Origin: an uncultured Sphingobacteriaceae bacterium
GTDB lineage: Bacteria; Bacteroidota; Bacteroidia; Sphingobacteriales; Sphingobacteriaceae
NCBI GenBank assembly: GCA_946887045.1
Contig: CAMPKC010000077.1
Location: 1 to 15,248 of the forward strand
Direction of reading: 5' to 3'
DNA length: 15,248 nt
In this document: positions 2,618 through 14,962 of the stretch, in pieces
Layout of the letters: each line of letters starts with the position of its first letter
Position numbering within the stretch: position 1 is the first letter of the stretch
Translations under genes and position numbers: made by a program
The notes under the pieces: generated by a model
Seen by the model: the letters and a program-made list of their open reading frames with translations, nothing else
The model's database searches: none
Told to the model about the DNA's origin: nothing

Positions 2618-2716
2618 AAAGAAACCTTCCTAAAGGAATAATAATACTGATTTAAAAGTTTCGAACATTGAATTATTCTTTCTCTTTTGACCATAATCAT
2701 TGACCTGGTTAATAAG

Positions 2717-2738
2717 AATCAGGCATATAAACCTGATT
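2717..2738. promoter_or_regulatory. Inverted repeat AATCAGG-N8-CCTGATT, possible operator
   Basis: Perfect 7-bp arms at 2717-2723 and 2732-2738 around CATATAAA, in the divergent gap between the phosphodiesterase and the PepSY-like gene. A TAnnTTTG-like box with one mismatch (TAGTTCTG, 2738-2745) abuts the right arm. The TCAG/CTGA core resembles the stress-gene dyads described elsewhere in this window, but the spacing (N10 between cores, 43 nt to the start codon) differs, so I treat it as a separate candidate. Confidence 0.35.
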
Positions 2739-2781: not shown

Positions 2782-3318
2782 ATGAAAACTCAATTAATTC
2801 TTCGCGTATCAATGGTGTTTTTAGGATTGTCACTTGCTTTCAGTTCTTCTGCTCAGGACGTTGATACTTTATTAAAAATGGATACCATCTCTGACAGAGG
2901 TCTTGATACTTTACCTACAGTAGTAATTACCAGAGGTTCTGTAGTAAATCAAAGAGTGTCGAAGGCTTTTAGCAATGATTTTAAAGATGCGATAAATCCA
3001 AGGTGGTTCGAGATAAATAAAAGGTATTTGGTTAAGTTTATCTCGGCGGATCAAAAAAATACAGCATTATATAATAAAAGAGGTTATCTGATATATCATA
3101 TTGCGTACGGAACAGAAAAACACCTTCCGGCAAGCGTAAGAGATCAGATTAAAGCTCAATACCCGCGGGCTACCATTACCAATGCTATTTATGTAAATCA
3201 GGCAAACCGGAAAATTTGGGTTGTAAACCTGGAAGAAGGCAGGGAATTGGTTTTAACGCGGATTGAAGATGATCAGCTGGATGAAGTTCAACGCTTGAAA
3301 AACGTTTCTGCGAATTAA
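2782..3318 (+). CDS. Secreted PepSY-like / BLIP-fold hypothetical protein
   Basis: The 178-residue product starts with a clear signal peptide (KTQLILRVS, then a hydrophobic stretch to residue ~20, with SSSA|QD suggesting cleavage after residue 24). The mature part after ~60 (FSNDFKDAINPRWFEI..., YLVKF, ALYNKRGYLIYHI, LPASVRDQIKAQYP, IYVNQANRKIWVVNLEEGRE) has the alternating helix-strand pattern and wording of the putative beta-lactamase-inhibitor-like PepSY-like family (DUF2874 type) common in Bacteroidota. Function is unknown; such proteins are periplasmic. No catalytic motif is visible. Only 14 bases separate it from the DUF892 gene downstream, with no terminator between, so the two are probably co-transcribed. 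Family assignment is by pattern recognition and moderately sure; secretion is strongly supported. Confidence 0.75.
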   Translation: MKTQLILRVSMVFLGLSLAFSSSAQDVDTLLKMDTISDRGLDTLPTVVITRGSVVNQRVSKAFSNDFKDAINPRWFEINKRYLVKFISADQKNTALYNKRGYLIYHIAYGTEKHLPASVRDQIKAQYPRATITNAIYVNQANRKIWVVNLEEGRELVLTRIEDDQLDEVQRLKNVSAN

Positions 3319-4920: not shown

Positions 4921-4983
4921 TTTGATCGCCGAGTTTCAATCTGCTATTTGTTGCCAGCCCTGATTATAATCAATAGCTGTACT

Positions 4984-5016
4984 GACCGTTATTTTAAAAA
5001 TGAAGGTCCGTTTTTT
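4984..5016 (+). terminator. Probable terminator after the alcohol dehydrogenase
   Basis: GACC (4984-4987) pairs with GGTC (5005-5008). Inside it, TTAT pairs with ATGA using one G-T pair, after a single mismatch, and the loop is A/T-rich. Six Ts follow at 5011-5016. The stem is weaker than the one at 1583 but well placed, 64 bases after the stop codon. Confidence 0.5.
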
Positions 5017-5161
5017 GTTCCTTTGAAAGCTGTCCGAGATTAGAATGAGGAGGTATTCGAGCTTAGATTTCTTTTGCAGCGAATTTTGCAGAGTTCGCTT
5101 CGCCATGATGATTCGATGGTACCCCGTTACTTAAATCATAGAAAAACTTTTTAATGTGAGA

Positions 5162-7168
5162 ATGATTATGCGGAAAAGTGCCTCAAAAACGAAAAAAGAA
5201 AAGGAAGACCCAAAAAAACTTCCGCAACCGGATCTTCCTGAAGGAACTAACTTCAGTATCGGTTGGATATATGTAATCCTGTTTGGTATCATTTTGACGG
5301 TTTCTGTATTTAGAGATACTTCGCTGGCAAAAGAAACTACCTGGCAGGAGTTTAACCGGAATATGTTACAACGTCGGGCAGTTGCGCGTATTGAAGTAAT
5401 CAACAACGAAAGGGTAGACGTTTATATCGATAAAAAATTTTCTCAGGACCCCGCTTTTAAGGACGTGTTTGCGCCTGCAATTGGCAGTCAGCCAGATCCC
5501 GGACCTCATTACGCATTTACTATCGGATCTGTAGAAACGTTTGAGGATAAACTCGATAAGGCACAGGCTAACTTCAAAGAAGAAGATAAAGTTGATGTAC
5601 GCTATGTGAAACAGTCTAATTGGCTGATGCAGATGTTCGGCTGGATATTCCTGTTTGTGATTATCACCATTATCTGGCAATATATGTTCCGGCGAATGGC
5701 TGCCGGTGGAGCTGGTAACTCTTCTGTTTTTTCCTTCGGAAAATCTACTGCTTTATTGATGGAAAAAGAGAATAAAAGCACCATCACGTTCGATGATGTT
5801 GCCGGACTGGAAGAGGCAAAAGTTGAGATCAAGGAAATTGTTGATTTCTTAAAAGATCCAAGCGTTTATACCCAATTGGGCGCTAAAATCCCGAAAGGAA
5901 TTATTATTGTCGGTCCTCCCGGAACCGGTAAAACGCTGTTGGTTAAGGCGGTGGCAGGCGAAGCCCAGGTTCCTTTTTTCTCTATTTCTGGTTCTGAATT
6001 TGTTGAAATGTTTGTCGGAGTAGGAGCATCACGCGTTCGTGATCTTTTTAAAAAAGCTAAAGAAAAAGCTCCGTGCATTGTTTTTATTGATGAAATCGAT
6101 GCTGTTGGGCGATCACGTAGTAAGAACTCGCTATATACCGGAGCCAACGACGAGAGGGAGAATACCTTGAATCAGTTACTTACCGAAATGGATGGTTTCG
6201 GAACCAACAGCGGCGTTATTGTTTTGGCTGCTACCAATCGTGCTGATATGCTTGACCCGGCTCTGTTACGGCCGGGAAGATTTGACCGTCATATCTACCT
6301 TGAATTGCCAAATTTCACTGAACGAAAAGCCATTTTCAAAGTACATTTGCGCCCCCTGGTTCTCGATTCTTCTATCGAAATTGATTTTCTTGCGGCACAA
6401 ACTCCTGGTTTTTCGGGTGCTGATATTGCTAACATTTGTAACGAAGCCGCTTTAATTGCGGCCCGCCGCAAGAAGCATAAGGTAGAAAAACAAGATTTTT
6501 TAGATGCTACGGACCGAGTGGTAGCCGGGCTGGAACGGAAAAGTAAAATCATTTCTCCGGAAGAAAAGAAGATTATTGCCTATCACGAAGCCGGACATGC
6601 CATTGTTAGCTGGCTTTTGAAGTATGTTGACACGCTGGCAAAAGTTTCTATTATACCTCGTGGGAAATCTCTTGGCGCTGCCTGGTATTTGCCCGAAGAG
6701 CGGGAGTTACGCACTGCTACCGAATTCTCGCAACGGCTTTGTGCCGCGCTGGGTGGGCGCGCAGCTGAAGAAATAATATGGGGCGAAGTGTCTTCGGGGG
6801 CATTAGACGACCTGGAAAAGGTGACCAAAGATGCGTATATGATGGTGGCTTTTTACGGCTTCAACAAGAAAATCGGTAATATTAGTTTTTACGATTCGAC
6901 CGGCCTGCGCGATTCCAGTATTCAAAAGCCATATAGTGAAGAAACCGGTAAATTGATTGATCAGGAAGTGAGAAAATTGGTGGAAGAGGCGTATAAAAAA
7001 ACCAAAGAAATTTTATTAAATCATAAAGAAGAACTTACACAAGTGGCGGAGCTGTTGTTGAAAAAGGAAGTGATCTTCAAGGAAGATATTGAACAAATTT
7101 TAGGAAAGCGCCCTGAAAGTAGTATGTCTGTTGAATTAAAAACCCCTGAGCAAGTTACCGGAGTTTAA
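5162..7168 (+). CDS. ftsH: FtsH-type membrane-bound AAA+ zinc protease (probable accessory paralog)
   Basis: Numbering from ATG 5162 (668 aa). A lysine-rich cytoplasmic start is followed by a membrane helix at ~31-50, a ~100-residue periplasmic domain, a second helix at ~154-176, then the AAA+ module: Walker A GPPGTGKT (251-258), pore loop FVGVG (284-288), Walker B IVFIDE (306-311) and the second region of homology ending RPGRFDR (~370-376). The protease domain has HEAGH (475-479) and the acidic third zinc ligand in [11 protein letters not shown] (D549 or D550). FtsH extracts and degrades membrane and short-lived cytosolic proteins using ATP. The SGAL.DLE and GNISFYDS segments match Bacteroidota FtsH, but [16 protein letters not shown] differs from the usual GYAQYLP-type text, and the stress-gene setting also suggests an accessory copy. 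GTG 5156 and ATG 5168 are alternative starts. Confidence 0.93.
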
Positions 7169-7222
7169 GCCTCTGCGAAGCTTTTTCTCGGGTAAGTCGC
7201 TGCAATGGCAGGTTTGGATAAC

Positions 7223-7280
7223 AATCAGTAATTGAGTTGAGACCTGTCAGTCAATAGAACCCAGTAGTTCTCTAATTTAG
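7223..7280 (+). promoter_or_regulatory. cfa promoter with degenerate stress dyad and -7 box
   Basis: TCAG (7225-7228), eight bases, then TTGA (7237-7240) matches TCAG-N8-CTGA at 7 of 8 positions. Counting two further bases, exactly 30 nt separate it from TAATTTAG (7273-7280), one mismatch from TAnnTTTG, and 24 nt more lead to the ATG of cfa. This is the same spacing as at the three perfect dyads. No TTTG/TTG -33 element is seen 19 nt before the box. Confidence 0.5.
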
Positions 7281-7304
7281 TTCCATCATTATTTTTTTAA
7301 AAGA

Positions 7305-8465
7305 ATGGCTACAGCTATAACCGATTACAGGAAATCCTATCCTGTTAAATTGAACTTTTACGAGGAGTATATGCACAAGCTTTTCAATAAAGCGGATATA
7401 CAAATTAATGGTTCGCGCCCATGGGACATACAGGTTCATGATTCATCGCTTTATGCAAACCTCTTTAAAAAGGGATCTCTGGCTTTCGGCGAATCGTATA
7501 TGGACGGCTTGTGGGATTGTGAAAAACTCGATGAGCTTACCTTTAGAATTATTAGAGCTAACCTTGACAGGGAAGTCTCAAGGGATTTTCGTGCAATTTT
7601 ATATTTTCTTAAATCGAAGTTTTTAAATCAACAATCGGTGAATAAAGTTCAGGAGGTAGCAAAGAAGCATTACGATGTAGGGAACGACCTTTTTGCCGCC
7701 ATGCTCGATAAAAGAATGATGTATTCATGTGCTTATTGGGATAATGCTGAAACACTCGATCAGGCCCAGGAAAATAAACTTGAACTGATTTGTCAGAAAC
7801 TTAAGCTTTTGCCCGGACAGAGGGTGCTGGATATTGGCTGCGGGTGGGGTGGTTTTGCTCAATATGCTGCAGAGAAATACAAAGTAGATGTAGTAGGAAT
7901 TACAATCTCAAAACAACAGCTTCAATTGGCGAAAGAGCGTTGTGCTAATCTTCCGGTTGAGATACGTTTACAGGACTATAGGAGCCTGAATGAAAAGTTC
8001 GACAGAATTGTTTCTATAGGTATGTTCGAGCATGTAGGATATAAAAATTACGTTGATTACATGCAAACAGTCAGAAATGCTCTTAAAGATGACGGCTTAT
8101 TTCTTTTACATACCATCGGTGGAAACGTTTCATTAACCACTATAGATCCATGGATCAATACTTATATTTTCCCGAATGCAATGATGCCTTCTGTCGCCCA
8201 AATCGGAAAGTCAATTGAAAATAAATTTATCCTTGAAGACTGGCATAGCCTGGGCAGCAATTACGACTTAACTTTAATGGCATGGATGGACAGATTTAAA
8301 CATGCATGGTCGCAGATAAGGGAAAAATACGATGAACGTTTTTATAGAATGTGGATTTATTACCTGTCTACTTGTGCAGCATCTTTCAGAGCAAAAAGAA
8401 ATAACTTGTGGCAAATCGTTTTATCGCCGCCAACAAACCTAAATGCCTATGTTTCTGTAAGGTAG
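7305..8465 (+). CDS. cfa: Cyclopropane-fatty-acyl-phospholipid synthase
   Basis: This 386-residue SAM-dependent enzyme transfers a methylene group to the double bond of unsaturated acyl chains in membrane phospholipids, forming cyclopropane rings that toughen the membrane under acid, heat or stationary-phase stress. The SAM motif is VLDIGCGWGGF (174-184). Residues known in the E. coli enzyme for bicarbonate binding are all present with a constant offset of +3: C142 (YSCAYW), E242 (EHVGY), H269 (LLHT), Y320 (NYDLT) and C357 (STCAASFR). The length equals the family norm (about 380). The start is the first ATG after an A-rich leader; no strong Shine-Dalgarno site is seen. A dyad plus -7 box upstream suggests shared control with the DUF892 and BON genes. 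It is convergent with DUF892-B, 21 bases apart. Confidence 0.95.
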   Translation: MATAITDYRKSYPVKLNFYEEYMHKLFNKADIQINGSRPWDIQVHDSSLYANLFKKGSLAFGESYMDGLWDCEKLDELTFRIIRANLDREVSRDFRAILYFLKSKFLNQQSVNKVQEVAKKHYDVGNDLFAAMLDKRMMYSCAYWDNAETLDQAQENKLELICQKLKLLPGQRVLDIGCGWGGFAQYAAEKYKVDVVGITISKQQLQLAKERCANLPVEIRLQDYRSLNEKFDRIVSIGMFEHVGYKNYVDYMQTVRNALKDDGLFLLHTIGGNVSLTTIDPWINTYIFPNAMMPSVAQIGKSIENKFILEDWHSLGSNYDLTLMAWMDRFKHAWSQIREKYDERFYRMWIYYLSTCAASFRAKRNNLWQIVLSPPTNLNAYVSVR

Positions 8466-8486
8466 CTTTTTCAATTTTGCCACTGG

Positions 8487-9011
8487 CTATTTAAGATAGA
8501 TATTAGGGTCTTTTGCTTTGATATTGATGTCATGCTCTGCCAATTGCGATAAGCGGTCGTCGATATGCTTTTCATTAATATCAATCGAATAAAAAACGTC
8601 CGTTCCCATTCCCATGTTCATTATTTTAGCAAAGGCTGCTGCTGTACCGTAAATACTTATTTTGAAATGATTTATTGCCTGTACGCCTGCCAGTAGAGCG
8701 GCATCTCTAACGTCCATATCCTGGCAAGTAAACATCGTTTGCTCAACCTCTTTAATATACGCATCCATTACACGGCTACCGACATTCAGCGGAGTGATTT
8801 CCTCTTCCTTCAACATGGCTTCCATCTTTTGTACATGCTGTTGAACAAACTCCAGGTATTTCTCCAGCACAGCTTTTAACTTGGAAGAATTGGCCTTATT
8901 GATCCAATCGGGTAAAACCGCTTTCAGTTGGTTTTCTGCGTTTATACACTCGCTGATATCATAAATAAGCAACTGACCAAGGTTGCTGATTGTTGAATTA
9001 TTTACTTCCAT
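8487..9011 (-). CDS. DUF892 (YciE/YciF-type) ferritin-like protein, copy B
   Basis: A 174-residue helical-bundle protein. Conserved polar residues are E26 (NAENQL), H59 (VQQHVQ), D103 and H115 (RDAALLAGVQAINHFKISIYG), and E147/H149 in NEKHIDDRLSQLAEH. It is clearly paralogous to copy C at 13774: VQQHV, CVQAINHFKIS-like helix 3, YGTAAAFA and INEKHIDDRLSQLAEH are shared almost unchanged. Copy A is a more distant relative. The family is ferritin-like and stress-associated (E. coli YciE/YciF), probably cytosolic; enzymatic activity is unknown. The gene is monocistronic and convergent with cfa. Its promoter shows the dyad TGTCAG-N8-CTGACA and a perfect TAnnTTTG box, the same spacing as for copy C, so the two copies probably share a regulator. 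Confidence 0.88.
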   Translation of the reverse strand: MEVNNSTISNLGQLLIYDISECINAENQLKAVLPDWINKANSSKLKAVLEKYLEFVQQHVQKMEAMLKEEEITPLNVGSRVMDAYIKEVEQTMFTCQDMDVRDAALLAGVQAINHFKISIYGTAAAFAKIMNMGMGTDVFYSIDINEKHIDDRLSQLAEHDINIKAKDPNIYLK

Positions 9012-9039
9012 GACGGTTGTTTTTTTCTTTGTTCTAATT

Positions 9040-9097
9040 CAAATTTATCCTTTGAACAGGAGTGTTCAACTGATCTGTGTCAGCACGATGGCTGACA
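9040..9097 (-). promoter_or_regulatory. DUF892-B promoter: dyad TGTCAG-N8-CTGACA plus TAnnTTTG
   Basis: TGTCAG at 9078-9083 and CTGACA at 9092-9097 form an inverted repeat whose flanking bases (C/G) also pair. On the minus strand 30 nt (9077-9048) separate it from a perfect -7 box TAAATTTG (9047-9040), followed by 28 nt to the start codon. A GTTG lies 19 nt before the box (9070-9067), a plausible -33 element. The dyad would centre near -54 if transcription begins a few bases past the box. Confidence 0.65.
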
Positions 9098-9239
9098 GTT
9101 CTCAAGAATGATGAAGTTCCAGCTAAAAGGCCTCTAAGTTGTGTAATCGTGCTTTTTAAAGTCTTTTAATAAAAAAAAAGGTTTTTTCACCGATGAAACT
9201 GGAACATTAATTGTTCGGCTTTAAGTTAATCACTGGCTT

Positions 9240-9413
9240 ATGGCAAAGACGAAAAAAATGAATGAGCAATTGCCTGAGAAGTATCCTGAGAATACGCCAA
9301 TTGCTGATCCTGAAGATCCATTTGTACCCGAAGGCGATCCTGAGATAATTCCCTTCGAAGATCCTTTTGAAACACCGCCTTATACGCCACCTGTCCCCGG
9401 CGAGGGGCCCTGA
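9240..9413 (+). CDS. Small proline- and acid-rich protein, 57 aa
   Basis: An open frame with start MAKTKKMNEQLPEKYPE and a run rich in Asp, Glu, Pro and Phe/Tyr, including EDPFVPEGDPEI, FEDPFETPPYTPP and a GEGP end. Short, disordered, proline/acid-rich proteins ending in PGEGP-like text seem familiar from Sphingobacteriaceae, but I cannot name a family or function. Support is compositional: 57 codons without a stop, a self-similar EDPF repeat and a basic N-terminus. No good Shine-Dalgarno site or TAnnTTTG box is seen, and the dyad at 9078-9097 is farther (centre ~152 nt) than at the other genes. If this frame is not a gene, 9012-9477 would be an empty stretch of about 460 bases. Confidence 0.55.
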   Translation: MAKTKKMNEQLPEKYPENTPIADPEDPFVPEGDPEIIPFEDPFETPPYTPPVPGEGP

Positions 9414-9442
9414 TAAGGTGTGCTGCGGGAGGTTAGGATTTA

Positions 9443-9472
9443 TTTTTATGCCGGCCTAAACCGGCATAAAAA
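9443..9472. repeat. Perfect 12-bp inverted repeat between convergent genes
   Basis: TTTTTATGCCGG (9443-9454) and CCGGCATAAAAA (9461-9472) flank the loop CCTAAA. It lies between the 3' ends of the small Pro-rich gene and the BON gene. On both strands the T-run comes before the stem and the A-run after it, opposite to a normal intrinsic terminator, so it may instead stabilise RNA 3' ends or be a protein site. Confidence 0.6.
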
Positions 9473-9477
9473 TCTTG

Positions 9478-10149
9478 CTAAAGAATGAACTCTGCCTCTT
9501 CTTCAACTTCCAGCTTATTTTCTACTCTGAAGATACCGGGAGCTGACCAGATAGCGTCTTCAGCATCTTCTTTTTCTGCGAAGGAGCGTACTTTTCCTTT
9601 CAGTATAGCTTTGTTCCCCTCAACTTCAACCTGTATTTTATTTGCATCAATACTGGCGCTTCTATGAAAAGCAGCGCTTATTTTTTGTTTTAAGTTTTCG
9701 GGCGCGTTTTTTTGTTTTAAAGTAAGGTTGTTAATAACGCTGCGCACACCGATAAGATTGACCACTGCGTTTTTGGCTGATTCTCGTTGATATCCCCAAT
9801 CAACTTCTCCTTCCAGAGTTATAACTCCATCTTCTACTTTTACTTTAATACTTTGTTCATTAATAGAGGTATGCCATTTAATTGCATTTACGGCGGCCTC
9901 TGCAATTTCTGTATCCGACCTTTTATAACTGGGTGAAACTCCTACCTGAATATCTTCAGCAATTGCCTTAACCCCCATTACTTTCTTGGCTTGTTTTTCG
10001 GCCTCTAACTTTTTCAGATAACTGTCTACATTACCTGAAAGCGTCACCACGCCGTTTTTAACAGAAACGCCAATCTCTGAAGCGTTTAAAAGCGGATCCC
10101 ATTTTAACTGATCGAGTACATCCTGCTGGATTTGTGCGTCATTTTTCAT
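9478..10149 (-). CDS. Triple BON-domain protein (OsmY-like)
   Basis: Three BON domains fill the 223 residues: about 4-70, 79-145 and 152-217. Each has the helix-strand pattern with a VxxGVVTLSG-type core: KNGVVTLSGNVDS, EDGVITLEGEVDW and EGNKAILKGKVRS; the third has lost the central glycine pattern. BON domains bind phospholipid surfaces. E. coli OsmY, with two, is a periplasmic, osmotically and stationary-phase-induced protein. Here no signal peptide is present (MKNDAQIQQDVLDQLKWDP), so the protein is probably cytosolic or at the inner face of the membrane; this is inferred. The C-terminus EVEEEAEFIL is strongly acidic. It is divergent from the USP gene. The promoter carries TCAG-N8-CTGA and a TATCTTTA box. 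Confidence 0.9.
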   Translation of the reverse strand: MKNDAQIQQDVLDQLKWDPLLNASEIGVSVKNGVVTLSGNVDSYLKKLEAEKQAKKVMGVKAIAEDIQVGVSPSYKRSDTEIAEAAVNAIKWHTSINEQSIKVKVEDGVITLEGEVDWGYQRESAKNAVVNLIGVRSVINNLTLKQKNAPENLKQKISAAFHRSASIDANKIQVEVEGNKAILKGKVRSFAEKEDAEDAIWSAPGIFRVENKLEVEEEAEFIL

Positions 10150-10176
10150 AATAATAGTCTGTTTTTTTTGATTTTT

Positions 10177-10233
10177 TAAAGATAGCTCCCTCCTTTTTTT
10201 TTGCTTTGATAATAATCAGTTATCTTTCTGATA
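10177..10233 (-). promoter_or_regulatory. BON gene promoter: dyad TCAG-N8-CTGA plus TATCTTTA box
   Basis: ATCAG (10215-10219) and CTGAT (10228-10232) form the dyad. On the minus strand, counting the same two extra bases as elsewhere, 29 nt separate it from TATCTTTA (10184-10177), one mismatch from TAnnTTTG, and 27 nt more lead to the BON start codon. No -33 TTG is seen; the purine run AGGAGGG upstream of the box is not a Shine-Dalgarno site for this gene. The site lies in the divergent gap shared with the USP gene and could act on both. Confidence 0.55.
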
Positions 10234-10339
10234 TTCATGTGATTAGTCAGGGTATTTATCATCTTACTTAGAGATGCCAATCAGTCTTTTTGTGGCCGTT
10301 TTCTTTCAATTTTATTTTCACATGAAACTCTGGTTTGTT

Positions 10340-11128
10340 ATGAAAAAAATTCTTGTACCAATCGATTTTTCCCCGGCTTCCCGTAGGGCCAGTGAATATG
10401 CCGCTACCTTGGCTAAACAACTGTCTGCCGAAATCCGGCTTTTATATGTGTTTCATGAAACCTCTGCTGTTATTGAGGGGCCCGTCGACAGCGATACTGT
10501 TGGTGCGGATTTAATGGACGAGAATGAAATTCTAGTAAAAAAGGAGATCAACTTTTTAAGGGAAAACTATGCCGTGGAAATAAGCGGATATGCCAGAATA
10601 GGTTTTAAAACGGCTAAGATACGAGATATGGCGGATGAGATGGAGGCTGATCTGATTGTTATGGGTGCCGGTGAAACCACATTAAGTACAATCAGAAAGG
10701 TTAACATACCGGTGCTAATAATTCCTGAAGAAGCATCTCTTTCACCTGTTAAACATATTGTGTTCGCTGCTGATTTTAATGAAATTTCTAATATTTCTTG
10801 TTTTGATCCTTTGCTTATATTGATGGACAAACTAGATGCGATGTTACAGGTTTTGCATATTAAAAGATACATGAAAGAGACAGATTTCGAAGATCCAGGA
10901 AAGGAACAACTTCGCAGCGTTTTCTCAAAGGTAACTTTCTGGTATGAGGAAATAGAGGCCGACAGTGTTGAAGAGGGGATTCAGGATTTTACCGCAAGCC
11001 ATCCTGCCGAATTGTTGGTTATGCTTGCCCGCACGCACAATGTATTTGAACGGGCTTTTGGCAGCGTTCATACCAGTTCAATGATTTATAAAACTAAATT
11101 ACCATTGCTGGTTTTGCAGGATAAATAA
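10340..11128 (+). CDS. Tandem-domain universal stress protein
   Basis: I take the start at ATG 10340, because MKKILVPIDFSPASRRASEYAATLA is the standard UspA opening; upstream in-frame ATGs at 10274 and 10322 would add 22 or 6 atypical residues. The 262-residue product has two UspA-like domains, ~1-132 and ~136-262. Domain 1 has D9 in the first strand, but the nucleotide loop is cut down: IVMGAGETTLSTIRKVNIPVLIIP lacks the normal GxxGx9G(S/T). Domain 2 keeps a longer loop (MLARTHNVFERAFGSVHTSS...KLPLLVLQ), with glycines partly replaced. ATP binding is therefore uncertain. Universal stress proteins accumulate in starvation and other stress and act in the cytosol. It is divergent from the BON gene and convergent with the membrane-protein gene 16 bases downstream. 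Confidence 0.87.
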   Translation: MKKILVPIDFSPASRRASEYAATLAKQLSAEIRLLYVFHETSAVIEGPVDSDTVGADLMDENEILVKKEINFLRENYAVEISGYARIGFKTAKIRDMADEMEADLIVMGAGETTLSTIRKVNIPVLIIPEEASLSPVKHIVFAADFNEISNISCFDPLLILMDKLDAMLQVLHIKRYMKETDFEDPGKEQLRSVFSKVTFWYEEIEADSVEEGIQDFTASHPAELLVMLARTHNVFERAFGSVHTSSMIYKTKLPLLVLQDK

Positions 11129-11144
11129 GTCAGACAGATAATCT

Positions 11145-11528
11145 TTAAAGCATTCTGCTCTTTTCAAGCCGTACTGCGAAATATAGAATACCCGTGCCGG
11201 TAAGAAGATAGAGCAGATGCAGCCAATGAATAGTATTAATCATAATCATTTGGATAATTATCCATCCGCTTATTAATAAACCGGCGACAACAGACCACTT
11301 ATACCTTGAGCGATATCGCTGTGCGTTGCAGAATCCTGCAAACAAATTCACTAATCCCACACCTACCAGAAGTATTCCCGGTATCAGAAAATTTTTAAAT
11401 GGAGTTTCTCGTAATATATCAGGCGGCAAATTTAACAGAGTACCCGGTGGATCGCTTATCATCAGTAAACCCGATACAATGCTCGTAAGAGCAACGAACA
11501 TGAGTAAGATAAATAAGGCAGACCTCAT
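11145..11528 (-). CDS. Small four-helix integral membrane protein, unknown function
   Basis: The 127 residues contain four hydrophobic segments, near 4-23, 47-67, 78-97 and 101-119, joined by short loops. The first loop (MISDPPGTLLNLPPDILRETPF) is on the opposite side from the basic loop QRYRSRYKW between helices 2 and 3, which suggests both ends lie in the cytoplasm. I do not recognise a named family. Its ATG overlaps the TGA of the PEBP-like gene (ATGA, 11528-11525), so translation is probably coupled and it is the last gene of the erythromycin-esterase-like operon. Confidence 0.75.
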   Translation of the reverse strand: MRSALFILLMFVALTSIVSGLLMISDPPGTLLNLPPDILRETPFKNFLIPGILLVGVGLVNLFAGFCNAQRYRSRYKWSVVAGLLISGWIIIQMIMINTIHWLHLLYLLTGTGILYFAVRLEKSRML

Positions 11529-12199
11529 TTAACTTTTTTATAAGTTCCAATCAGCTCGCCGAAACCTATAATATGTCCGCTCATTGCCTTCTCCAGATCG
11601 GTTTTCCTTGTAGTCGGACCCAAGTTCAGCAATTCATCTAATGCATATACTTTAAAAAAGTACCGGTGAGTGCCTGATGGGGGGCAGGGGCCGCCATAAT
11701 TTCTTTTTTCAAAATCGTTAACCCCTTCCACGCCATGTATAACATTTTCTTTTATATGATGCGTCAATGGAATATTCCATACAAGCCAGTGCACCCAGGT
11801 TGCAATTGGTGCGTCAGGGTCGTCAACAATTAGGGCCAGGCACTTGGCTTCATCCGGAATGTTTTCGATTTCCAGTGGTGGGCTTAAGTTTTTGCCGTCG
11901 CATGTGTATTTTGACGGAATGGATTGATTGTGTTCAAAGGCGGGGCTGGTAATTTTAAGCTCTTTGTAATGTACAGAGTAATACGCAGATTCACTGAGGT
12001 CTGATTGATCGGGCCAGTCATTCTGATTCTCCCCAGATGAAGTAAACGAGTCAACGCCTTCTATAAAATCAGGGTCTTCGTGCTGGATGATTGGTTCATC
12101 TGTACTTATTGGCATCTTAGTATCCGAATTGTTTTTCGGTGTCAGTGTGCTGTTTTTTGCGGCCTTTCTCATAGTCTTTATTGATTTTTTATTCTCCAA
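11525..12199 (-). CDS. PEBP/YbhB-family protein (Raf-kinase-inhibitor-like) with N-terminal extension
   Basis: Residues ~77-224 are a complete PEBP domain: ITSPAF, YTCDGKNLSPPLEI, the ligand motif DDPDAP (126-131), WVHWLVWNIP, the second motif YGGPCPPSGTHRYFFKVYALD (168-188), and IGFGELIGTY at the end. Bacterial members (YbhB/YbcL) bind phosphate-bearing or small anionic ligands; their cellular role is poorly known. Residues 1-75 are an unusual extension: a basic start (MENKKSIKTMRKAAK), then a polar, acidic, low-complexity tail with no signal peptide or membrane segment, so the usual ~150-180-residue family length is exceeded. The start overlaps the end of the erythromycin-esterase-like gene by 11 bases, and its stop overlaps the next start. 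If the true start were internal, the extension would shrink, but no better-placed ATG is obvious. Confidence 0.88.
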   Translation of the reverse strand: MENKKSIKTMRKAAKNSTLTPKNNSDTKMPISTDEPIIQHEDPDFIEGVDSFTSSGENQNDWPDQSDLSESAYYSVHYKELKITSPAFEHNQSIPSKYTCDGKNLSPPLEIENIPDEAKCLALIVDDPDAPIATWVHWLVWNIPLTHHIKENVIHGVEGVNDFEKRNYGGPCPPSGTHRYFFKVYALDELLNLGPTTRKTDLEKAMSGHIIGFGELIGTYKKVK

Positions 12200-13523
12200 A
12201 CGGATATGTTTCCGGCATTTGGTGGCCGTCGGGTTTTAAATGCAGAGGATGCAGGGCGTTGGTTTCATCCAGATAAATAAATGCGTCGTAACGCAGTGGC
12301 AATATGCTGGGTACATAATTGCCATATTCATGTTTAGGGTCGTAAACCACACCTATTGCTCTGTGACCCAAATGATTTTCCATTAAAATATCATGATCAG
12401 CGAAATCCTCCATAATCAATAATTTGTTTACGGTGCCTGCGGTATGTAATAAATATTCCCAGCTTCCTTTTTTCGCTTCGGGTACTTCCATTTTTTGCAT
12501 GGGTGCTCCCCAGCTTTTTCCCGCAGTAACAAATCCTTTATACGATCCGAATCCTACCAGCACTACGCCTTTATCAGCATGTTGAATTCTTGCCAGTTCC
12601 CCGATATTAAACATCCCGTCCTGAACCATATCCGTTGCCCGGGCATCACCTATGTGCGTATTATGTTCCCATACAATTGCCTTCGAATTTTCTCCGTGAA
12701 ATGCCAGCAAACGGTTTAAAGTATCGGCCATATGTCTGTCACGTACGTTCCAGCTATGGGGTCCGCCCTGCACCATCGCCCTGTAATATTTTTCGGCATG
12801 TACTGCTACCAGGGCGTTTTGTTCGGTACTAAACACGTTCTCATAGTCAGAGTCGTACTTAGGCGATTTTTGCTGAATTTCTTTTAACAACTTAACCACT
12901 TCATTTTGACATAGCTCAGGTACCAGCATCGAGGCCCTTGCATATGCCCTGCCTTCATCGTTACGGTAAGGCTCAAAACAACGAAAAGCTTCCTCGGCAA
13001 TTTGCAAAGCTGCTGGATCGGTATTCTTTAGATACTGCATAATACTTTCCATGCTTTCCCACAGGCTGTATACATCCAGACCATAAAATCCTGCTTTCTT
13101 GTTTGAAGGCAGATCCAAGTTGTGTCTTTGCATCCATTCAGCCAGTGCTGCTACTTCCCAGTTAGCCCACATCCATGTTGGCCAGCGGTTAAACTGGTGC
13201 AATATTTTCAGGGCTGTTCTGTGCTCCGGGTCGTATCCTTTAACAAACCGGTTTAACCGATAGCAATCGGGCCAATCCCCTTCAACAGCAATAAAGTTGA
13301 ATCCTTTTTCTTCTATCAGCTTTCGTGAAATATGAGTGCGCCATGTATAATATTCGTTCGTCCCGTGACTGGCTTCACCTAACATCACTATTCTGGAATC
13401 TCCTATCCGGTCAAATAAGGGCCGCAAATCAGCCCTGCTGTTAAGCGGATAGCTCCATTGTTTAATGGCGCTGATAGCTGCGGTTTCATCTACCGATACT
13501 TCCTGCGTAAAATAACGTCTCAT
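12189..13523 (-). CDS. Erythromycin esterase-like protein (COG2312 type)
   Basis: The 444 residues span a full erythromycin-esterase fold. Key residues are LGEASHG (48-54; E50 and H53 correspond to the catalytic pair of Ere enzymes), AVEGDWPDCYRLNRFV with E81, RDRHMADT (261-268) and WEHNTHIGDAR (285-295) with H287 and H290. Ere enzymes hydrolyse the macrolactone ring, but chromosomal homologs like this one are common in environmental bacteria and have not been shown to confer macrolide resistance; the natural substrate is unknown. It heads a minus-strand operon with the PEBP-like and membrane proteins. Homologs elsewhere are found next to, or fused with, phosphoribosyltransferase and dienelactone-hydrolase-like proteins, both encoded divergently here from 14303 on. 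No clear Shine-Dalgarno site or -7 box is seen. Confidence 0.9.
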   Translation of the reverse strand: MRRYFTQEVSVDETAAISAIKQWSYPLNSRADLRPLFDRIGDSRIVMLGEASHGTNEYYTWRTHISRKLIEEKGFNFIAVEGDWPDCYRLNRFVKGYDPEHRTALKILHQFNRWPTWMWANWEVAALAEWMQRHNLDLPSNKKAGFYGLDVYSLWESMESIMQYLKNTDPAALQIAEEAFRCFEPYRNDEGRAYARASMLVPELCQNEVVKLLKEIQQKSPKYDSDYENVFSTEQNALVAVHAEKYYRAMVQGGPHSWNVRDRHMADTLNRLLAFHGENSKAIVWEHNTHIGDARATDMVQDGMFNIGELARIQHADKGVVLVGFGSYKGFVTAGKSWGAPMQKMEVPEAKKGSWEYLLHTAGTVNKLLIMEDFADHDILMENHLGHRAIGVVYDPKHEYGNYVPSILPLRYDAFIYLDETNALHPLHLKPDGHQMPETYPFGE

Positions 13524-13682
13524 AGTATTGACTCTGTGTTCACCGGAGATTCATTTGCCTGCTTAATTTCTCTCTTTAAACCGCAAATTATGCAAGGGCT
13601 TTTCCTTGTAAAGAGTTCTTTTGGGCAATTTGTTTTTCCTGCGTTGTTTATTCAAAACAACCTCATTTTATGGTTCTTATGC

Positions 13683-13748
13683 ATGATAATTGTCAGATCG
13701 TAGTCTGACAATTATCATCGGGATAGAATTGAAAGCGGACTAGATTTG
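13683..13748 (+). promoter_or_regulatory. DUF892-C promoter: 15-bp-arm dyad (TGTCAG-N8-CTGACA core) plus TAGATTTG
   Basis: ATGATAATTGTCAGA (13683-13697) and its exact complement (13704-13718) flank TCGTAG. The inner core TGTCAG-N8-CTGACA (13691-13710) is the same as upstream of DUF892-B. From the core end, 30 nt lead to a perfect -7 box TAGATTTG (13741-13748) and 25 more to the ATG. AAGGA, 8 nt before the ATG, is a likely ribosome site. No -33 TTG is present, as expected if an activator bound at the dyad recruits polymerase. The hairpin lacks a T-run, so it is not a terminator. Confidence 0.65.
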
Positions 13749-13773: not shown

Positions 13774-14292
13774 ATGGAAAATACACCTATCAGTACCCTT
13801 CATAATCTTATAGATTATGATATCAGCAGGTTTATGAGTGCAGAAGTTCAGCTAAAAAACAGTTTGTCAGAATGGATCAACAAGGCCAGTTCTCTTCAGT
13901 TGAAAAATGTTTTGCAAAGGTATCTGACCTTCGTACAGCAGCATGTTGAAAAACTGGAAGAGTTTTTTGAACAGGAGCAAATAGGTTCTTTAAGTCTCAA
14001 TAATCGCATAATGCAGGCCTATATTTCTGAAACTCAGGAGAAATTGGAAAACTGTACACATTTAGAGGTGAAAGATGCCTGTCTGCTTTCTTGTGTGCAG
14101 GCTATAAATCATTTCAAAATAAGTACATACGGAACTGCTGCGGCGTTTGCCAATGCACTTGGAATGGATAAATCTGCTGCCGTTTTTCACGAAGCAGAAA
14201 TCAACGAAAAACACATTGATGACCGTTTGTCTCAATTGGCTGAACACGAAGTGAATATTAAGGCTAAGTCTCCGATCATCTTACCTGAATAA
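13774..14292 (+). CDS. DUF892 (YciE/YciF-type) ferritin-like protein, copy C
   Basis: A 172-residue paralog of copy B with the same conserved set: E24 (SAEVQL), H57 (VQQHVEK), D101 and H113 (KDACLLSCVQAINHFKISTYG), E145/H147 in NEKHIDDRLSQLAEH. The two copies match over their whole length except for short stretches, and the last 30 residues are nearly the same, so the duplication looks fairly recent or under strong constraint. Function of the family is unsettled; it is ferritin-like and stress-linked. Copy C carries cysteines (C94, C103, C107) absent from copy A. It leads a plus-strand operon: the alpha/beta hydrolase starts 10 bases after its stop, and the phosphoribosyltransferase follows. 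Its promoter has the strongest dyad in the window. Confidence 0.88.
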   Translation: MENTPISTLHNLIDYDISRFMSAEVQLKNSLSEWINKASSLQLKNVLQRYLTFVQQHVEKLEEFFEQEQIGSLSLNNRIMQAYISETQEKLENCTHLEVKDACLLSCVQAINHFKISTYGTAAAFANALGMDKSAAVFHEAEINEKHIDDRLSQLAEHEVNIKAKSPIILPE

Positions 14293-14302
14293 ATCTGACA
14301 TT

Positions 14303-14962
14303 ATGGAAATGCGTATTGCTAAAGAGGTTGCCATTCCTGTTAAAAGTATAACCTTAAAAGGTGAATTGTCTGTGCCCTTAAATGCGACAGCGATTATTGT
14401 TTTTTCGCACGGAAGTGGAAGCAGCCGATTTAGTAGCCGCAACCAGATGGTGGCCGCGTACCTGCGTGAAAGGAATTTTGGAACACTTTTATTCGATTTG
14501 CTTACAAGTCAGGAAGACGAGGACTATGATAACAGGTTTAATATCGATCTGCTAAGCAGCAGACTAATAGGTGTAACGGAATGGCTGAACGCTAATCCTG
14601 CAACAAAAGATCTGAGTGTAGGGTACTTTGGTGCAAGCACTGGTGCTGCATCTGCCCTGCAGGCCGCCGCTAACCTGGGTTCGGTAGGCGCTGTTGTTTC
14701 AAGAGGCGGGCGCCCCGATCTTGCAATGAGGTTTGTAGAAAGAGTTGAGGCTCCGACCTTGTTGATTGTCGGAGGTTTGGATCCCGTTGTTCTTGAGTTA
14801 AACCAAAGAGTGCTGCAAAGATTGCATTGCCCTAAAGATCTTATAATAGTTGAAGGCGCTTCTCATTTATTTGAAGAGCCGGGAAAATTGGATAAAGTAG
14901 CAACATTGGCTGCTGAATGGTTTGAAAAATATTTAAGTCCTGTGGCAGCAGTAAGAAGTTGA
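14303..14962 (+). CDS. Alpha/beta hydrolase, dienelactone-hydrolase-like
   Basis: The 219-residue product has an alpha/beta-hydrolase core with a complete triad: nucleophile S112 in GYFGASTGAAS (GxSxG-type elbow), D160 in VGGLDPVV and H188 in GASHLFEE. The oxyanion-hole region is FSHGSGSSR (34-42). The substrate is unknown; the serine nucleophile differs from the cysteine of true dienelactone hydrolase, so the name gives only the superfamily branch. Proteins of this type are adjacent or fused to COG1926 phosphoribosyltransferases in many bacteria; the M. tuberculosis protein Rv0571c is, as I recall, such a fusion. Here the phosphoribosyltransferase follows after 25 bases, and DUF892-C precedes by 10, indicating an operon. 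Initiation could also be at the second ATG, 14309. Confidence 0.87.
   Translation: MEMRIAKEVAIPVKSITLKGELSVPLNATAIIVFSHGSGSSRFSSRNQMVAAYLRERNFGTLLFDLLTSQEDEDYDNRFNIDLLSSRLIGVTEWLNANPATKDLSVGYFGASTGAASALQAAANLGSVGAVVSRGGRPDLAMRFVERVEAPTLLIVGGLDPVVLELNQRVLQRLHCPKDLIIVEGASHLFEEPGKLDKVATLAAEWFEKYLSPVAAVRS

Follow-up and report, generated by a model that had tools for sequence, protein, structure and literature searches.

A tandem palindromic promoter element upstream of stress genes in Sphingobacteriaceae, with a receiver-Crp fusion protein as its candidate regulator

The window, a stretch of 15,248 nucleotides (nt) from contig CAMPKC010000077.1 of an uncultured Sphingobacteriaceae bacterium, contained a recurrent promoter element made of two 12-bp palindromes, TGAY-N4-RTCA, with a gap of exactly N10 and centers 22 bp apart. 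The unit is TGAY-N4-RTCA-N10-TGAY-N4-RTCA and not a single dyad. The element probably marks a low-oxygen and stress regulon run by a FixJ-FixK fusion, that is, by a response regulator with a receiver and a Crp/FNR-type DNA binder (REC-Crp) that would act on the double operator by class II activation.

Six pairs with at most 2 mismatches in 16 positions occurred in the window, at 2688, 4961, 7216, 9071, 10207 and 13684 (Table 1), versus a mean of 0.07 pairs per dinucleotide shuffle (n = 100). The downstream box ended 22-23 nt before a TAnnTTTG-like -7 box. Pairs with a -7 box (≤1 mismatch) 22-24 nt downstream amounted to 6 strand-sites at 5 window sites, and to 8 strand-sites when the box was allowed 2 mismatches; neither combination occurred in 100 shuffles. 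A first-pass annotation had described TCAG-N8-CTGA dyads, exact at 9080, 10216 and 13693 and with one mismatch at 7225, followed by -7 boxes (TAAATTTG, TATCTTTA, TAGATTTG and TAATTTAG) 28, 27, 25 and 24 nt ahead of an ATG; all of these copies, boxes and distances were found, and no further perfect dyad was present in the window. Its dyad-to-box gaps of 30, 29, 30 and 30 nt fit if counted from the end of CTGACA, but are 32, 31, 32 and 32 nt from the end of CTGA. It had rightly seen that the promoters share a cis element at a constant distance, but took the inner halves of the two boxes for the unit; instead of a single dyad near -54 there were two palindromic boxes, with centers ~41 and ~63 nt ahead of the inferred start. 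It had also counted four promoters, whereas six sites exist: 2688 and 4961 were overlooked, and 10207 and 13684 each lie between two divergent genes.

Relatives were identified from a single gene: a protein scan with DUF892-C gave nine loci, and the upstream regions of eight were read (L009 had none). The N10 pair was seen by eye in 6 of the 8 (L001, L003, L005, L006, L007 and L008). In eight relative genomes, with at most one mismatch, the tandem pattern occurred 157 times versus 6 for the reversed pattern. The extended dyad TGTCAG-N8-CTGACA, proposed earlier as the search pattern, was weakly enriched in the same genomes at the same tolerance (60 versus 19 for the reversed control) and was rejected as the unit. 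With spacing left free from N0 to N30 (narrower pattern, 6 genomes), N10 accounted for 18 of 28 exact pairs. The regulon had been thought local; genomes from Pedobacter, Mucilaginibacter, Agriterribacter and Pollutibacter carried the element too, and in Pedobacter it preceded a cbb3 oxidase operon. Contigs C1 and C2 of genome G245 held eight one-mismatch hits, and the seven listed resembled a different, GC-richer dispersed repeat.

All 101 distinct sites examined (6 in the window and 95 of the 157 in relatives, from stretches around site clusters) lay outside ATG-started open reading frames (ORFs) of at least 100 amino acids (aa), although such ORFs made up 80% of that DNA. A site was counted as inside an ORF when its center was at least 30 nt within it; isolated sites among the others may well be coding. 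A looser count (17 loci; ORFs ≥70 aa, GTG and TTG starts, ≤2 mismatches) placed 10 of 59 sites inside an ORF; for eight of them the ORF had 72-112 aa, and the other two fell where a longer ORF has an alternative start region. The coding-region check suggested for the dyad, run on the corrected element, gave no refutation in the 101 sites.

Conservation ahead of homologs was scored as a site within -60 to 300 nt upstream, in loci chosen around DUF892-C, sites or regulators, so that the following rates are not genome-wide and overlapping loci repeat some genes. Sites were present for 9 of 14 DUF892-C rows (6 distinct genes), 8 of 10 BON homologs, the only CFA homolog (1/1), the only homolog of the 178-aa gene (1/1), 3 of 6 esterases and 2 of 8 homologs of the hydrolase at 14303-14962. 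Sites for Usp homologs (2 of 9 rows) both belonged to one Pollutibacter gene in two overlapping loci; with looser clustering, Usp-type genes stood behind sites from four relatives and the window. Among fetched loci, ftsH (0/1) and ADH (0/1) homologs had no site, and the window genes at 58, 1628, 11145 and 11525 had no homolog. Comparison of ortholog promoters, also suggested at first pass, did not refute the corrected element, but left ftsH unsupported by its single fetched homolog, so the evidence for an ftsH promoter comes from the window sequence.

Across 103 site-gene pairs, exact TAnnTTTG stood 23 nt after the second box in 18 pairs, 24 nt in 2 and elsewhere in 2 (20 of 22 at 23-24 nt). 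With one mismatch allowed, the offset was 23 nt in 56 pairs, 24 nt in 6 and 22 nt in 4, with 0-3 pairs at each other offset. Sixty further loci, fetched for regulator genes or for more sites and overlapping in a few cases, gave 88 strand-sites, and exact boxes were at 23 nt in 17, at 24 nt in 1 and elsewhere in 1 (18 of 19). The sequence logo of 95 site-gene pairs, which had been selected by the tandem pattern, was TGAT-N4-ATCA twice; a -33 TTG was not conserved in it, and TGTGA (the CRP box) was not part of it. The Bacteroidota promoter consists of a -33 TTTG and a -7 TAnnTTTG. The element shares the -7 sequence with this housekeeping promoter, and the activator boxes occupy the place of the -33 element. 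Most of the promoters had been said to lack the -33 TTG, and this holds; only in the DUF892-B promoter was a TTG seen by eye, ~19 nt ahead of the -7 box. From the center of box 2 to the first base of the -7 box there were 29 bases (6 + 23 at the main peak). In class II activation by E. coli Crp and FNR, the distance from box center to promoter matches these 6 + 23 bases. Judged from spacing, the geometry is that of Crp/FNR class II activation, with a predicted box center at about -41.5 from the inferred start.

Proteins with HTH_Crp_2 were present in all eight relatives. One kind, of ~350 aa, was a response regulator with Response_reg, cNMP_binding and HTH_Crp_2 domains, the REC-Crp named above; its N-terminus was a receiver domain and not the FNR-type [4Fe-4S] cysteines, which belonged to a separate protein. 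The family is large (7593 of 8000 scored candidates at E ≤ 1e-60), and all 120 candidates listed had the three domains, some of them under general names (response regulator, CRP-like cAMP-binding protein). Of 69 REC-Crp ORFs, among which overlapping loci repeat some genes, 55 were immediately preceded by a kinase ORF, and tandem sites clustered at this two-component operon. In 6 of 14 copies a tandem site started at the REC-Crp stop codon, and in L102 one site lay 45 nt ahead of the kinase gene with which the kinase-regulator operon begins. The four genes looked at behind the stop-codon site (L102, L109, L112 and L117) matched the 2-hydroxyacid dehydrogenase family or co-clustered with it. Three of the ORFs directly behind REC-Crp (L102:14173-14640, L109:13678-14145 and L112:4566-5036) were of 156-157 aa; the L102 copy matched only the catalytic-domain part of the dehydrogenase, the L109 and L112 copies clustered with it, and the L117 counterpart had 340 aa and an NAD-binding domain.

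Around 27 higher-scoring REC-Crp loci there were 24 sites in 243 kb versus 0 in the control, with a site in 20 of the loci; around 18 lower-scoring loci there were 2 sites, in each case at a locus whose kinase is FixL-like. The helix sequence was ETVSR in 10 of 14 copies, similar to the E--SR helix of FNR. A lower-scoring group (L146-L160) had mostly ETAIR or ETLIR helices, kinase partners and no tandem sites in the stretches examined. The first-pass annotation could not name a regulator; the REC-cNMP-HTH_Crp response regulator is the candidate offered here.

In the proposed mechanism, two Crp/FNR-fold dimers would be neighbors on the same face of the helix, separated by about two turns. The dimer on the downstream box (~-41.5) would replace the missing -33 contact, and the upstream box (~-63.5) would add cooperativity. 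The activator would most likely be REC-cNMP-HTH_Crp, encoded behind its own sensor kinase and presumably also present in the organism of the window, so that FixJ (the receiver) and FixK (the Crp/FNR binder) would be one protein. Low oxygen would activate the kinase, the receiver would be phosphorylated, and the cbb3 oxidase and stress genes (DUF892, BON, Usp, Hsp20 and CFA) would be switched on.

The L102 kinase was of PAS-HisKA-HATPase type, and its PAS domain matched FixL structures (E = 5.7e-30). A His and an Arg, which we take to be the heme ligand and the FG-loop residue of FixL-like PAS domains, were kept in 16 of 16 partner kinases with a PAS score of at least 300 (query included). These 16 include three Pedobacter genomes and the Sphingobacteriaceae metagenome-assembled genome (MAG) whose DUF892-C is the nearest to that of the window (75%); in these Pedobacter and in the MAG the partner kinase is, as far as its sequence indicates, of the FixL-like heme-PAS type. 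A tandem site preceded fixI-fixS-ccoNO-ccoP-ccoG-fixH-dsbD (cbb3 oxidase) in L102, and fixI homologs stood behind sites in 4 of 8 relatives. FixK targets the cbb3 oxidase and its maturation genes; here, the genes of this kind behind sites are putative targets. Beside the cbb3 operon, L102:2594-3832 encoded a protein with a PycTM (Pycsar effector) domain.

A -7 box (≤2 mismatches) at offset 22-25 was present in 95 of the 103 pairs; after omission of two short ORFs, 93 proteins were scanned, 6 of them from the window. Among the first 25 of 90 families these included DUF892 (7), BON (6), Usp (6), P-type ATPase (6), Hsp20 (5), FixI-type PF12156 (4), 2-hydroxyacid dehydrogenase (4), MlaE (3), cytochrome c (3), CMAS (2), fatty acid desaturase (2) and nitroreductase (2). 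These families bear out the earlier proposal of a stress-gene regulon and suggest low oxygen together with stress, with control by oxygen as the putative link. REC-Crp could instead be the correct regulator with an input other than oxygen (redox, nitric oxide, envelope or nutrient stress), the regulon then being a general stress response. Many partner kinases were not FixL-like and the commonest downstream families were general stress proteins, but the 16 best-scoring partners all kept both heme-pocket residues and a cbb3 operon stood behind a site; a non-oxygen input is unlikely on balance, though it deserves to be kept in view.

Co-occurrence was evaluated in 296 evenly drawn genomes of Bacteroidota, with full-length REC-Crp defined as E ≤ 1e-90. 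The 43 genomes with REC-Crp had 223 sites versus 15 in the control (1.12 per Mb), and the 253 genomes in which REC-Crp was not found had 221 versus 48 (0.26 per Mb; Mann-Whitney p = 5.5e-10). The boxes might be read by another Crp/FNR protein: the stand-alone type with N-terminal cysteines, a 235-aa type (SLSGIFPID) or a relative. Both stand-alone kinds were present in relatives, and two 235-aa copies (L066 and L070) had a 2-mismatch site ~60 nt before their start. Seventeen genomes without REC-Crp but with a listed stand-alone relative had 53 sites versus 5 in the control, and stand-alone loci had 9 sites in 121 kb, at 5 of 11 loci, versus 0, although G133 and G173 of these 11, as well as G153, also have REC-Crp. 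However, strong matches were rare among the 296 genomes (cysteine type in 6 and 235-aa type in 3; 14 and 17 with weaker ones), REC-Crp genomes without a strong match to either kind still had 140 sites versus 11 (36 genomes), stand-alone helices were mostly YET-FR or ENV-R and not ETVSR, and sites were concentrated at REC-Crp loci. Binding of the boxes by a different Crp/FNR protein in place of REC-Crp seems improbable.

Several observations weigh against a regulon read by REC-Crp under oxygen control. The difference in site density between genomes with and without REC-Crp was calculated with kinship ignored, and absences of REC-Crp are soft because usually only 7 candidates were scored per genome. 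Lower-scoring REC-Crp genomes had no enrichment (5 versus 5 in 12 genomes, with G153, G169 and G185 and their 18 sites set aside). Sites were abundant in some genomes without REC-Crp (15 in G278, 12 in G157 and 6 in G280), and the 236 genomes that lacked both REC-Crp and any listed stand-alone relative had 168 sites versus 43, a fourfold excess, so REC-Crp cannot be the sole reader of such pairs. The excess is due either to additional Crp/FNR proteins that recognize these pairs or, in part, to palindromes at large; the fusion may be younger than the DNA code. No regulator gene was present within the window, and 14 of the 69 REC-Crp ORFs had no adjacent kinase within the stretch examined. Most partner kinases outside the FixL-like 16 had a generic PAS domain in which the aligned His is not diagnostic. 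Helices were ESLIR or ESMIR in 4 of 14 REC-Crp copies, and in L073 and L076 the paralogs adjoining DUF892-C carry S or N in place of the phospho-Asp, so that the sites may serve two or more REC-Crp proteins. Among the DUF892-C upstream regions, by eye, L002 had no site and L004 had N9 spacing. The outer T/A of TTGAT-N4-ATCAA was not conserved in the logo, with a T before box 1 in 19 of 95 pairs.

Repressors, too, typically bind palindromic pairs, and box 2 adjoins the -33 region. A repressor operator is nevertheless very unlikely, as the distance from center to box is that of class II activation, the -33 TTG is not conserved and a single offset dominates in both locus sets. Chance palindromes, terminators or mobile repeats, which the hairpin-like site at 13684 (15-bp perfect arms) and the repeat-like G245 hits call to mind, were rejected for the whole set by the shuffles, reversed controls, intergenic placement, fixed -7 offset and conservation upstream of homologs, and have a negligible likelihood.

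Sites and genes of the window are given in Table 1. The -7-like boxes of site 2688 and, toward usp, of site 10207 were weak. Site 2688 was also considered for GDPD (1628-2617), which was dropped since no -7 box (≤2 mismatches) was present at offset 22-24. The 178-aa protein had no Pfam match, and its homolog in the fetched loci (L045:152-652) also stood behind a tandem site; the fetched CFA homolog (L100:9064-10224) had an exact one. Site 10207 may also serve usp. The Usp domain starts at residue 23 of the ORF at 10274, so ATG 10340 is the likelier start and 10274 was set aside. Site 13684 sits within a perfect 15-bp inverted repeat (13683-13718), and the divergent esterase/DUF892-C layout around it recurs in L003 and L008 (L008 is the same region as L049). 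The 57-aa ORF at 9240-9413 is acidic and proline-rich and had no Pfam match; behind it, at 9442-9473, lies a perfect inverted repeat of 13 bp.

Table 1. Tandem sites and genes of the window. Mismatches of sites are out of 16 positions; offset is the distance in nt from the downstream box to the -7 box.
Feature	Position	Strand	Match	-7 box (position; mismatches; offset)	Context
TGACCATAATCA-N10-TAATAAGAATCA	2688..2721	+	1 mismatch	GAAATTTA (2745-2752; 2 mismatches; 23)	upstream of 178-aa gene 2782-3318
TGATTATAATCA-N10-TGACCGTTATTT	4961..4994	+	2 mismatches	TTCCTTTG (5018-5025; 1 mismatch; 23)	upstream of ftsH
GGATAACAATCA-N10-TGAGACCTGTCA	7216..7249	+	2 mismatches	TAATTTAG (7273-7280; 23)	upstream of cfa
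TGAGAACTGTCA-N10-TGACACAGATCA	9071..9104	-	1 mismatch	TAAATTTG (9040-9047; 23)	upstream of DUF892-B
Tandem pair	10207..10240	both directions	2 mismatches	toward BON TATCTTTA (10177-10184; 22); toward usp TTACTTAG (10264-10271; 2 mismatches; 23)	between BON (-) and usp (+)
TGATAATTGTCA-N10-TGACAATTATCA	13684..13717	both directions	exact	(+) TAGATTTG (13741-13748; 23); (-) TTGTTTTG (13653-13660; 23)	between erythromycin-esterase-family gene (-) and DUF892-C (+)
FtsH-type AAA protease	5156..7168	+	PF01434 E=5.3e-63, PF00004 E=1.5e-48		
cfa, cyclopropane-fatty-acid synthase family (CMAS)	7305..8465	+	PF02353 E=9.9e-94		
DUF892-B	8487..9011	-	PF05974 E=3.3e-22		
Three-BON-domain protein	9478..10149	-	PF04972 E=9.6e-47, 3 stretches		
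Universal stress protein (usp)	ORF 10274..11128	+	PF00582 E=1.6e-24		
Erythromycin-esterase-family protein	12189..13523	-	PF05139 E=2.9e-116		74% identity to L049:13157-14491
DUF892-C	13774..14292	+	PF05974 E=9.6e-22		9 related loci fetched

The proposed activation is of the FNR/FixK type, with a receiver fused to the DNA binder and a fixed double operator. FNR, ANR and DNR regulons share the TGAT-N4-ATCA core, class II spacing and Usp-type targets with the element, but here a receiver takes the place of the N-terminal [4Fe-4S] cysteines and tandem boxes are the rule. The DosR regulon of actinobacteria, which responds to hypoxia, likewise has a response regulator, paired boxes and universal stress proteins, but the output of DosR is of the LuxR type and its box is unrelated. 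The FixL-FixJ-FixK cascade of Alphaproteobacteria has in common with the system a FixL-like heme-PAS kinase, a receiver, a Crp/FNR-type binder and TGA..TCA palindromes, with TTGANCNNGATCAANG as the FixK/FnrN consensus (PMC4999443). The differences lie in the paired boxes at fixed N10, the Bacteroidota -7 promoter, the lack of a conserved outer T/A and the many stress genes. In Alphaproteobacteria FixJ, with its LuxR-type output, activates fixK, and FixK is a stand-alone Crp/FNR protein, whereas here the receiver and the Crp/FNR binder are a single protein with a cNMP_binding plus HTH_Crp_2 output. Among the papers listed by searches of open-licence literature, none treated the element or a FixL/REC-Crp pair in Bacteroidota in its title or displayed abstract.

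To our knowledge, the low-oxygen sensing and response of aerobic Bacteroidota are poorly mapped, and the element offers a readable regulon code and a kinase-regulator pair as candidates. It also offers a reason for DUF892, BON, Usp, Hsp20 and cyclopropane-fatty-acid genes travelling together. The receiver directly driving a Crp/FNR binder would be an unusual domain solution in a large family. The chances are about even that a one-protein FixJ-FixK, a phospho-switched Crp/FNR regulator of which two dimers stack on the fixed double operator, is a main switch for low oxygen and stress in Sphingobacteria-type Bacteroidota, and that its regulon is readable in a genome by TGAY-N4-RTCA-N10-TGAY-N4-RTCA-N23-TAnnTTTG.

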